This document shows, piece after piece, positions 22,714 through 25,315 of a stretch of DNA of 64,000 nucleotides. A program made the translations under genes and the position numbers. A model generated the notes under the pieces. The model saw only the letters and a list, made by a program, of their open reading frames with translations, was not told the DNA's origin and did no database searches. Origin of the DNA: Burkholderia metallica (GTDB lineage Bacteria > Pseudomonadota > Gammaproteobacteria > Burkholderiales > Burkholderiaceae); contig NZ_CADFDB010000001.1 of NCBI RefSeq assembly GCF_902832845.1, positions 372,001-436,000 on the forward strand, in the 5' to 3' direction. The first letter of the stretch is position 1. The number at the start of each line of letters is the position of its first letter.

Positions 22714-22883
22714 TTTGTTGTGGAATTGTTGACGAATGTTGCGGCCCGCGGGGCGGGCGATGGCCGTTCGGCCAGGTATGACGGGCTTCCCGGGCGGTTT
22801 AGAGTGATGGCATCGCGGCTCGCCCGCAATGACAGCAAGGTGATAATATGACTGCATTGAAAGCAATCGTCTCGGGGTGCATC

Positions 22884-23123
22884 ATGCCTGTCATTACCGT
22901 TCGGAATTTGCCCGATGAAGTGCATCGGGCGCTTCGGATTCGTGCGGCCCAGCACGGGCGCAGTACCGAAGCGGAAGTGCGTGACATTCTCGAGCAGGCG
23001 GTATTGCCGGGCGGTCGGCTGAAGCTGGGAACGCTGCTGGCGGAAATCGGGCGGGAGGCGGGAGGTGTCGATTTCGACGTTCAACGCGACAAGACGCCAA
23101 CCGGTCCGATGAGCTTCGAATGA
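22884..23123 (+). CDS. FitA/VapB-like ribbon-helix-helix antitoxin
   Basis: 79 residues. N-terminal ribbon-helix-helix: VITVRNLPDEVHRALRIRAAQHGRSTEAEVRDIL. ATG 22884 is chosen over ATG 22848 because the family begins at MPVITVRN and GGGGTG precedes it. The last bases overlap the toxin start (ATGA). Autorepressor and toxin neutraliser by family. Confidence 0.87.
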   Translation: MPVITVRNLPDEVHRALRIRAAQHGRSTEAEVRDILEQAVLPGGRLKLGTLLAEIGREAGGVDFDVQRDKTPTGPMSFE

Positions 23124-23539
23124 TTCTGGTCGACACGAACGTCATGTCCGAGCCGCTGCGGCGCGAGCCGAGTGCGGCCGTGATCGAGTGGCTCGATGCG
23201 CAGAACGTCGAGACGCTATTCGTTGCCGCGATCAGTCTTGCCGAAATGCGGTCCGGCGTCGCGGCGCTGCCGGAAGGGCGCCGGCGCGACTGGTTGCATC
23301 AAAGCATCGAGCAGCGTGTCGTGCCGTTGTTTCGCGGCCGGATCCTGCCGTTCGACGATGCGGCGAGCAAAGCGTATGCGGGTCTTCGCGCGCGGGCCCG
23401 GGCTGCGGGCAGTGCGATCGCGCCCGCCGACTGCTTCATTGCCGCGACGGCCGAGGCGAACGGATTGATGATTGCGACGCGCGACGTCGCGCCATTTCAG
23501 GCGGTCGGCTTGCGCGTGATCGATCCGTGGGCGTCTTAG
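23120..23539 (+). CDS. FitB/VapC-like PIN-domain toxin
   Basis: 139 residues. PIN acid residues in ILVDTNVMSEPLR, SLAEMRSGV and PADCFIAATA, in the order expected of FitB-type RNases. Overlaps the antitoxin by four bases. This is the second PIN-toxin module within 6 kb, of a different antitoxin class from the first. Confidence 0.9.
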   Translation: MILVDTNVMSEPLRREPSAAVIEWLDAQNVETLFVAAISLAEMRSGVAALPEGRRRDWLHQSIEQRVVPLFRGRILPFDDAASKAYAGLRARARAAGSAIAPADCFIAATAEANGLMIATRDVAPFQAVGLRVIDPWAS

Positions 23540-23567: not shown

Positions 23568-23604
23568 GCAAAAAATAAAGCGCGCCGGGCAGCCCGGCGC
23601 GCTT
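23568..23604 (-). terminator. intrinsic terminator of the HTH-ATCase gene
   Basis: A 12-bp perfect stem (AAGCGCGCCGGG, loop of 3, CCCGGCGCGCTT, 23578-23604) is followed on the minus strand by TTTATTTTTT, a canonical rho-independent terminator for the gene ending at 23651. It may also slow transcription from the toxin gene on the other strand. Confidence 0.8.
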
Positions 23605-23650: not shown

Positions 23651-24946
23651 TCAATCGACGCCGTGAAACACCGCGTCTTCCGGCCCGAGGTACGCCGGCG
23701 GGCGCCACGTCGCGTCGCGCATCGAATGCTGAACGAGGTTCTCGACGCCGAGCAGTACCGCGAAGATCGCCATCCGCACCGGAATACCGTTGTCGGTCTG
23801 GCGGAAGATCGCGAGGCGCGGGTCCCGGTTCAGGTCGACCGACAGGTCGTTCGCGCCGGGCCGGCTGTCGCGCGGCAGCGGGTGCATGATCAACGTGTCA
23901 GGTTTGCACACCGTGTCGACGAGCGCCTGGTTGATCTGGAAATCCGGCGTGTAGCCTTCGAACGACTCGTCGGTGAAGCGCTCCTTCTGGATCCGCGTTG
24001 CATAGACGACGTCCGCGCCGTGCAGCCCGGCCGCGAGGTCGGTCGTCTGCTCGATCACGTGCCCGTTGGTCGCGATCTGGTCGATGATGTAGGCCGGCAT
24101 CTCGAGCGTCGGCGGAGACACGAGCGTGAACTTGAGCCCGCGGTACAGCGCGAGCAGCTTCACGAGCGAATGCACGGTGCGGCCGTACTTGAGGTCGCCG
24201 ACCAGCGCGATGTGCGCGCCGTCGACGATCTTGCCGAGCCGCGAGAATTCGCGCTGGATCGTATAGAGGTCGAGCAGCGCCTGGCTCGGGTGCTCGCCGG
24301 GGCCGTCGCCGCCGTTGATCACCGGCAGGTTGGTCGCGCGGGCGAATTCGGCCACGGAGCCTTTCTCCGGATGGCGGATGACCAGCGCGTCGACGTAGCC
24401 GGCCATCACGCGGCTCGTGTCGTAGATCGATTCGCCCTTTGCCATCGACGAGAACGTGAAGCCCGTCGTGTCGCACACCGAGCCGCCGAGCCGGCAGAAG
24501 GCGGCGCCGAACGAGACGCGCGTACGCGTGCTGGCCTCGAAGAACAGGTTGCCGAGCACCGCGCCTTCCAGCACGCGCGAAATCTTGTGGCGGCGCGCGA
24601 TCGGCTGCATCACGTCGGCCACGCGGAACAGCGCCTCGACCGAGTCCCGCGAGAACTGGTCGACCGACAGCAGTTGCGGCTTGCCTTCAAAAAAGAACTG
24701 CTTCGCGAGCCCCTGGTTGTCTACGCTTTGCGTATATTCACCGCCTTCCGGTGTGGCGCGCTCGACGATTTCCGAGACGAAGCGCTCGACGATCTCGGGC
24801 ATCCCGCGCGATTCCTGCGAATCGTCGGGCAACAGCCAGGTGTCCAGCGCGCGCCGGCTGACGCCGATGCGATTGGCGAACGCTTCGCGGGTCATGTTGA
24901 GGCGGCGCATGGCGTCGCGAAGGAAGGCTTGCTGGGGAACGGTCAT
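23651..24946 (-). CDS. aspartate carbamoyltransferase with N-terminal HTH domain
   Basis: 431 residues. Residues 1-60 form a Cro/CI-like HTH (LNMTREAFANRIGVSRRALDTW), then a linker (61-85), then an ATCase of the E. coli PyrB type: STRTR carbamoyl-phosphate loop (139-143), HPSQALLDLYTI, GDLKYGRTVHSL, and HPLPR near the C-terminus. Catalyses carbamoyl phosphate + L-aspartate to N-carbamoyl-aspartate in pyrimidine synthesis. E. coli PyrB is about 311 residues, so the extra 75-80 residues are the HTH. No pyrI or other pyr gene is adjacent. AGGAG precedes ATG 24946; promoter and palindrome are listed separately and suggest autoregulation. Confidence 0.93.
   Translation of the reverse strand: MTVPQQAFLRDAMRRLNMTREAFANRIGVSRRALDTWLLPDDSQESRGMPEIVERFVSEIVERATPEGGEYTQSVDNQGLAKQFFFEGKPQLLSVDQFSRDSVEALFRVADVMQPIARRHKISRVLEGAVLGNLFFEASTRTRVSFGAAFCRLGGSVCDTTGFTFSSMAKGESIYDTSRVMAGYVDALVIRHPEKGSVAEFARATNLPVINGGDGPGEHPSQALLDLYTIQREFSRLGKIVDGAHIALVGDLKYGRTVHSLVKLLALYRGLKFTLVSPPTLEMPAYIIDQIATNGHVIEQTTDLAAGLHGADVVYATRIQKERFTDESFEGYTPDFQINQALVDTVCKPDTLIMHPLPRDSRPGANDLSVDLNRDPRLAIFRQTDNGIPVRMAIFAVLLGVENLVQHSMRDATWRPPAYLGPEDAVFHGVD
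24721..24738 (-). repeat. internal partial copy of the upstream palindrome
   Basis: On the minus strand AATATACGCAAAGCGTAG lies within codons 70-75 of the HTH-ATCase gene. It shares the 9-bp left arm and most of the right arm (GCGTA) with the operator at 24964-24984. It falls exactly between the HTH and the enzyme domain. Confidence 0.6.
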
Positions 24947-24963
24947 CGGCGGCTCCTGACGAA

Positions 24964-24984
24964 AATATACGCGGTGCGTATATT
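24964..24984. promoter_or_regulatory. 21-bp palindromic operator candidate of the HTH-ATCase gene
   Basis: Perfect inverted repeat AATATACGC, GGT, GCGTATATT (9-bp arms, 3-bp spacer), ending 18 bases upstream of the start codon and overlapping the -10 element. Bound protein would block RNA polymerase. AT-rich and strongly symmetric in a GC-rich background. Confidence 0.75.
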
Positions 24985-25007
24985 AGTTCGTGGCGCGTTG
25001 AAGTCAA
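24980..25007 (-). promoter_or_regulatory. sigma-70 promoter of the HTH-ATCase gene
   Basis: On the minus strand -35 TTGACT (25002-25007), 16-bp spacer, -10 TAATAT (24980-24985). The start point would lie within the palindrome about 25-30 bases before the ATG. Confidence 0.7.
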
Positions 25008-25180: not shown

Positions 25181-25315
25181 ATGACGCGTACGATTGCTGC
25201 AATGCTGCTGGTGGTGACCGCCGCGCTTGCCGGTTGCAACACGGTTGCCGGCGTGGGGCAGGACCTTTCGAAGGGCGGCCAGGCAATCAGCGATACGGCT
25301 GAAAAGGCCAAGTAA
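25181..25315 (+). CDS. entericidin-like small lipoprotein
   Basis: 44 residues. Lipoprotein signal with lipobox LAGC (Cys about residue 18), mature part GVGQDLSKGGQAISDTAEKAK as in EcnA/EcnB entericidins, which are membrane-active lipoproteins of an antidote/toxin pair in Enterobacteria. ATG 25181 is preferred to ATG 25175 because CAAGGAG ends seven bases before it. A TATAAT at 25087-25092 may be its -10. Only one entericidin is encoded here. A strong terminator follows. Confidence 0.9.
   Translation: MTRTIAAMLLVVTAALAGCNTVAGVGQDLSKGGQAISDTAEKAK

Follow-up and report, generated by a model that had tools for sequence, protein, structure and literature searches.

The gene at 23651..24946 on the minus strand raises the question of whether an aspartate carbamoyltransferase (ATCase) can be its own repressor: the encoded protein, of 431 aa, begins with a helix-turn-helix (HTH)-like domain, and a palindrome lies over the gene's promoter. 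The gene was found in a 64,000-nucleotide stretch of Burkholderia metallica DNA, here called the window. It also bears on a point left open by a 2015 review, in the part of its text available (PMC4581275), namely why Burkholderia possess a second ATCase of ∼430 residues and whether either enzyme has a catabolic role.

The gene was delimited by ORF translation and by matches to Pfam and to NCBIfam PRK11891 (NF008853). The latter covered residues 1-431 (E = 1.6e-269; 893.6 bits, cut-off 560); since this match spans the whole chain, N-terminal domain included, the fused HTH-ATCase is an already named family. Pfam and NCBIfam profiles placed a complete ATCase over about residues 91-400 (OTCace_N, 5.9e-43; OTCace, 2.8e-28; TIGR00670, 297.5 bits against a cut-off of 236.95). 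The catalytic region was set at residues 89-431 (23654..24682, minus strand), and the translation contains, as FFEASTR, RIQKER and HPLP, all the ATCase motifs (FxExSTR, RxQxER, HPLP) given in the available portion of PMC4581275. The nearest named relatives were Burkholderia species, B. lata (98%) being first among the best 80 of 514 stretches. A sequence-only reading of this DNA had assigned a PyrB-type ATCase following a Cro/CI-like HTH at residues 1-60. The first assignment is confirmed by both Pfam domains and the full-length PRK11891 match. The second stands in part: homologues, a family match and the predicted helix order agree with an HTH, while the HTH_3 score does not reach the Pfam cut-off. 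Residues 1-72 alone scored 18.0 bits with HTH_3 (cut-off 23), and L259, a stand-alone HTH homologue, scored 23.0, just at the cut-off. PHROG family 4779 (‘transcriptional regulator’) matched 13 of 14 aligned HTH members at E ≤ 0.01. Helices were predicted at residues 3-15, 20-27 and 31-37, with pLDDT values of 57-81 for the block; the full-length model, built with 35 close sequences, was otherwise poor (mean 48.4) and supports solely the helix order of the HTH. Searched against PDB sequences, the HTH profile gave no more than weak matches, HigA-2 (E = 0.16) being the best. The N-terminal HTH domain was accordingly annotated at residues 1-62 (24761..24946, minus strand) from the sub-threshold HTH_3 match, the stand-alone homologues and the helix order. 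The putative recognition helix region comprises residues 30-37 (SRRALDTW; 24836..24859, minus strand), as indicated by the helix prediction and by residue 36, which tracks the half-site (see below). A linker of residues 63-88 (24683..24760, minus strand) joins the two parts of the protein.

Downstream of the gene, a terminator-like hairpin was found on the minus strand (23578..23604), one against a mean of 1.9 in shuffled sequences and thus not significant alone. Just past the gene lies a VapB/VapC-like pair (22848-23539, plus strand), for which the VapC models scored under their cut-offs and the first ORF had no match. On the other side, a 44-residue lipoprotein-like ORF (25181-25315, plus strand), which we take to be entericidin-like, diverges from the HTH-ATCase gene and has the upstream region in common with it.

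A promoter scan identified a sigma-70-type promoter, TTGACT-16-TAATAT, at 24980..25007 on the minus strand. Its -10 region is overlapped by a perfect 9-3-9 palindrome, AATATACGC-ACC-GCGTATATT (24964..24984), which also covers the predicted transcription start and is here named putative operator 1. A second promoter-like match, on the plus strand (24956-24984), likewise overlaps the palindrome; the scan yielded these two matches against a mean of 0.3 in shuffled sequences. Among relatives, the best -35/-10 pair beside the site, taken over several spacings and without a shuffled control, matched at least 9 of 12 positions in 120 of 146 loci. A partial copy of the palindrome, AATATACGC-AAA-GCGTAGACA (24718..24738; putative operator 2), lies within the gene at the fusion joint, over codons 70-76, where it forms the YTQSV codons of the linker; its chance expectation in the window was 0.00. 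Both elements had been described from the sequence alone and were found as described. A reading of the promoter palindrome as an RNA hairpin was considered and is not favoured, since the predicted start lies in mid-palindrome and the RNA would hold half of it alone.

When the whole 7.55-Mb genome was searched at up to three mismatches, solely these two sites were recovered and the reversed-pattern control gave none. A wider regulon was not apparent either: the 17-mer occurred at two mismatches in seven places against seven for the reversed control, and the two self sites alone scored better than that. In several relatives the reversed control outnumbered the pattern. The sequence TTTACGCATAGCGTATA was present in the genomes of two relatives (group g90). 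In one stretch, L212, it adjoins, near position 2501, an IclR-like and a TctC-like gene, and in L214 a weaker TACGC-N3-GCGTA site has similar neighbours at the same place (gene identities were assigned by eye in both). The TACGC-N3-GCGTA sites of L212 and L214 are probably look-alike sites of another regulator.

The distribution of the HTH and of the upstream site was then compared over 186 loci, the window's gene (L086) included: 147 with an intact HTH and 39 without. They included the best 80 of 514 encoding stretches, the best 30 of 37 matching genomes in one further sample, and, from a second family, 54 loci read out of 137 matching genomes (30 best, 4 from the order sample, 20 chosen). 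The 39 loci were sorted by absence of LRDAM/LRGAM and include seven with a decayed N-terminal domain; many loci are closely related, so that counts are not independent. The suspicion that such fusions occur elsewhere in Burkholderia proved right, and they extend beyond that genus: HTH-ATCase was matched from the N-terminus on in 17 of 300 genomes of the order sample and in 13 of 145 genomes of one family, and was matched in 137 of 200 of another, four of these 137 lacking or missing the N-terminal part. With an intact HTH, the upstream site (a 17-bp motif with 14 fixed positions) was found with at most two mismatches in 143 of 147 loci and with at most four in all of them (0 mismatches in 67, 1 in 67, 2 in 9, 3 in 3 and 4 in 1). 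Loci without an intact HTH had 4 mismatches in 1 case, 5 in 9, 6 in 14 and 7 in 15, and none of the 39 had three or fewer. Shuffled upstream sequences reached two or fewer mismatches in 1 of 245. The window's locus is left out of all 146-locus counts and of the thinned set; because the loci are related, the 146 were thinned to 30 representatives with <90% catalytic identity, of which 27 had the site at two or fewer mismatches and all 30 at four or fewer.

Loss of the domain was accompanied by loss of the site. In reduced genomes of 0.7-0.9 Mb, the HTH is decayed in L172-L178, as read from translations, and deleted in L179 and L180; the ATCase, the sole one of those genomes, is kept, and the palindrome is absent upstream of all nine loci. 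In a midpoint-rooted tree, five representatives of these decayed or deleted, site-less loci were nested within the clade of HTH-bearing genes (98/91 and 98/86 at the nodes). L104, a wrong 95-aa reading frame, and L107, which is very long, both fell outside the clade at issue. The joint loss in the reduced genomes may have happened once or a few times. HTH and site are likewise both missing from L103. Elsewhere in the comparison, plasmid NZ_CP083452.1 of Comamonas odontotermitis, a 373-kb replicon, carries an HTH-ATCase gene (L265) that neighbours proC and ubiA and has two upstream sites (two mismatches each) and no inner site.

These data bear on the possibility that the HTH is a remnant serving oligomerisation or effector binding and that the palindrome is the operator of another regulator. 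The HTH score under the Pfam cut-off would fit such a remnant, as would the similar sites beside the IclR-like gene of L212 and L214. Against this, HTH and site occur and vanish together, both sites are unique to this gene genome-wide, and the HTH has stand-alone relatives with palindromes of their own and an agreement between residue and half-site (see below). We regard this explanation as very improbable.

The inner copy lies in coding sequence, and the question there is whether DNA or peptide is conserved. Of the 146 loci, 108 have a linker of the form T[QHPL][SRG]V. In 107 of these 108 the Val codon is GTA, a codon used for 5.2% of Val in the rest of the same genes; Ser is AGC in 103 of 104 (29% elsewhere) and Thr is ACG in 106 of 108 (49% elsewhere). 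The linker Gln is CAA in 88 of 102 (21% elsewhere), a bias that the arms do not explain, as the Gln wobble base sits in the spacer. The inner motif, at two or fewer mismatches, occurred in 110 of 146 loci; among 14,600 synonymous shuffles the figure was 4.8%. Conservation of the YTQSV linker motif as protein sequence alone, with no DNA site, could be proposed because the majority of the listed loci from Burkholderia and Paraburkholderia encode YTQSV, and codon freezing is common among the 80 close relatives, where 104 of 362 scored columns show one codon in ≥95% of loci. Yet the Val codon that is frozen, GTA, is a rare one: among 30 scored Val columns it ranks first in that of the inner site alone, and it is found in 12 of 12 thinned representatives. 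Further, the same DNA motif is encoded by differing peptides (STLGVY, STPSVH, LTQSVY), and the two arms covary: TGC/TGC in 13 loci, TAC/TAC in 101, mixed TAC/TGC in 6 and other combinations in 26, although the 13 TGC/TGC loci may represent few events. Purely peptide-level conservation is thus very improbable and, on this codon evidence, the constraint on the inner copy acts at the DNA level, beyond its peptide. A recognisable inner site was absent from 11 of the 146 fused genes, which indicates that two sites are not obligatory. Four of these (L100, L101, L102, L125) have two matches with four or fewer mismatches fully upstream, as do 10 of the remaining 135 loci. The spacing between sites showed no clear 10.5-bp phase (R = 0.43), and the peak of 0.50 near 11.8 bp was clade-driven.

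Used alone as a query, the HTH retrieved short stand-alone homologues from other genomes of Burkholderia. One of them, searched in turn, matched 46 plasmid records, some of which proved to be fused genes; 30 records were opened, 14 of them held out, and 6 of the held-out ones turned out to be fused genes, on replicons that are 1.2-3.5 Mb long and recorded as plasmids. The stand-alone genes encode 64-85 aa and occur on plasmids (many of them) and on some larger, chromosomal contigs of Burkholderiales, as well as on Pseudomonas plasmids; the phage records searched contained no stand-alone relative. Identity between stand-alone and fused HTH was 44-58% (ten loci, two of them broken). ArdK of IncN plasmids was considered as a known relative and dropped, as it belongs to the TrfB family according to the available text of PMC6289460.

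Twenty-two intact stand-alone genes were scored for palindromes; the set excludes the fused L265, the broken frames L228 and L229, and L226, which has diverged and shows no palindrome. Palindromes of 7-3-7 form with at least 6 of 7 pairs were found by the stop codon in 14 of the 22 and before the start in 11, compared with 84 and 67 of 880 dinucleotide shuffles, respectively. Perfect ones were found in 9 (stop) and 2 (start), compared with 4 and 3 of 880 shuffles. Half-sites of ACTC or CCCC type made up 13 of the 14 stop sites and 10 of the 11 start sites. With spacers of 2 and 4, the counts were 4 and 2 genes (stop) and 1 and 1 (start); the odd spacers 1, 5 and 7 were also high, since longer palindromes are counted at several spacers. 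Within the stand-alone frames, which give roughly a threefold longer window, a palindrome with 6 of 7 pairs was found in 10 of 22 genes and a perfect one in 1. Both sites were present in six stand-alone genes and at least one in 17 of the 22; in L250, L251 and L259 both are plain. Most members of the stand-alone family (L220-L225, L227, L250-L264, L272-L274, L276) carry TATACTC, TATCCCC or TACCCCC palindromes of the 7-3-7 form before the start, at the stop or both, while a palindrome of the predicted type was absent from L220, L226, L253, L254, L262, L275 and L277-L279. From these arrangements, the stand-alone genes are apparently self-regulating cassettes with shifting specificity. The position of their downstream sites relates them to the inner site of the fused genes: counted from the ATG, 13 such sites begin at 206-245 nt. 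In 12 of these the distance to the first base of the stop codon is 4-16 nt, and the site of L224 overlaps the frame end. In the fused genes the inner site begins at 201-210 nt, again counted from the ATG, in 130 of 146 loci. The fusion joint is thus placed roughly at the expected end of the old stand-alone gene, and the inner site resembles a former downstream operator read through as codons.

The residue preceding the Trp of the recognition helix is Thr36 in the window's protein; among 146 fused genes it is T in 138 and S in 7, with one gene unscored. Their sites carry ACGC on at least one arm in 145 of 146 and on both in 122, a tally that is not independent, the ACGC motif having been used to select them. 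Stand-alone sites, scored by palindrome alone, have ACTC or CCCC half-sites where the fused genes have ACGC. With N before the Trp, ACTC was present in four of six genes and none was scored in two; with K, the listed pairs were read as having CCCC on each arm in 13 of 16 genes, the exceptions being L226, L253 and L255 (the last with CCCC on one arm). The rule was written down before the 14 further records were opened. All six held-out fused genes, of the T type, had an ACGC arm, five of them on both sides (L268 had ACGC and ACTC), and CCCC was found in four of five held-out stand-alone genes of the K type. Three held-out records, outside the scoring pattern, had K before the Trp without such a palindrome. 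In these stand-alone relatives the residue and the half-site agree.

Taken together, the data are best explained, with considerable confidence, by an autorepressing ATCase whose HTH and both operators would come from a captured stand-alone cassette, the downstream operator now serving as linker. Autoregulation by HTH-ATCase is very likely on comparative grounds. The N-terminal HTH would bind the TATACGC-N3-GCGTATA palindrome over its own -10 region and start, and also the intragenic copy ∼246 bp downstream, thereby repressing transcription of its own gene; we infer both the DNA binding and, from the position of the site, repression rather than activation. Protein bound over a -10 region and start usually blocks RNA polymerase, and such a block would account for autorepression. 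A point against this explanation is that an ATCase trimer mismatches the twofold symmetry of the site unless a second trimer is engaged or the third HTH is idle. The HTH and its operators would descend from a self-regulating cassette with a site at its promoter, its stop codon or both. On fusion to pyrB, if fusion ran in that direction, the downstream site would have become the linker codons YTQSV and been retained as an operator. The two sites may be used jointly, the inner one aiding through local concentration or through a loop of ∼246 bp. The proposal of the sequence-only reading that the enzyme could be its own repressor is therefore strongly supported by comparison (shared presence and loss, genome-unique sites, constraint on the inner site, agreement of residue and half-site). 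By its further proposal, expression would be tied to occupancy by substrate and the protein would sense pyrimidines; substrate or assembly state may modulate the binding.

It could instead be that the HTH binds its sites to hold enzyme level constant without any ligand, or that it activates rather than represses. The stand-alone cassettes, which have no enzyme domain, are in keeping with ligand-free control, against which no observation speaks, while a site that covers the -10 region and predicted start speaks against activation; this alternative, taken as a whole, has a substantial chance of being right, though somewhat below even. A more elaborate form of the autorepressing ATCase is a metabolite-gated bridging repressor, in which two trimers paired through their HTHs would loop the ∼246 bp between the sites, active-site occupancy would set release or tightening, and the second operator would be the former intergenic site. 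We consider the bridging form rather unlikely; if it is true, the enzyme itself would read pyrimidine demand.

The role of the enzyme was approached through the ATCases of 31 genomes. This ATCase was accompanied by a second one over the cut-off in 14 genomes and was the sole one over it in 10 (8 with an intact HTH, 2 with a decayed one); the HTH-less form was the sole ATCase in three more genomes of the order and in two of another order, and the other type stood alone in two. PyrR scored over its cut-off in 11 of the 14 genomes with two ATCases, in 0 of 10, 0 of 3 and 0 of 2 of the following groups, and in 2 of 2 with the other type alone. PyrR was thus present in 13 of 31 genomes, every time adjoining the pyrB of non-HTH type; the 15 genomes whose sole ATCase is of the HTH type, or is its HTH-less form, had no PyrR over the cut-off. 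In several complete genomes the HTH-ATCase is the sole ATCase over the cut-off, and it is therefore presumably biosynthetic, at least where it stands alone. Two ATCases have reportedly been described in Burkholderia cepacia, one of them a trimer of ∼47 kDa chains. The genome studied here has a second pyrB lacking an HTH, in the order ruvX-pyrR-pyrB-pyrC', which is presumably under PyrR. ATCase is also among the genes duplicated in Burkholderia according to the available part of PMC3966863. PyrI had been noted as missing nearby, and no PF01948 match was found in the entire genome; control matches were obtained in 7 of 14 genomes, E. coli included.

ATCase is the textbook regulated enzyme, and if, as it appears here, one lineage uses it as the transcription factor of its own gene, pyrimidine synthesis would gain a new point of control. 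In class B ATCases, such as that of E. coli, regulation involves catalytic trimers and PyrI chains (PMC4581275, available part), whereas PyrI is absent from the present genome and the catalytic chain carries an HTH instead; the proposed pairing of two trimers by HTHs would resemble the pairing of trimers by PyrI dimers. The second pyrB of the same genome provides a same-pathway ATCase with no HTH, and the stand-alone HTH regulators, annotated as ‘transcriptional regulator’, ‘helix-turn-helix domain-containing protein’ or ‘hypothetical protein’, lack the enzyme domain. The fused family itself is already known by sequence, PRK11891 having the same architecture over residues 1-431 and a description that names the enzyme alone; as far as the text of the open-licence PMC literature was available, no account of regulation by HTH-ATCase was found in it. 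Bifunctional proteins of this general kind have precedents, NadR being one. BirA and PutA are enzymes doubling as DNA-binding repressors (PMC6978683) and BirA is both biotin ligase and bio repressor (PMC5343134); in beta- and alphaproteobacteria BirA has lost its DNA-binding domain, apparently with no BirA regulon (PMC5343134), a pattern that matches the loss of HTH and site described here, as far as the available parts of these papers go. An enzyme part is present, as in BirA and PutA. It is joined here to a part that is HTH-like by homology to stand-alone regulators, and an operator-like site, conserved with the HTH, lies at the promoter that it may control. Here, however, the enzyme is a transcarbamylase, the putative operator is another one, and a second operator would lie in coding sequence. 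A repressor cassette apparently captured whole, whose downstream operator now codes for protein and is still under selection as DNA, would be what is new with respect to the other enzyme-repressors.
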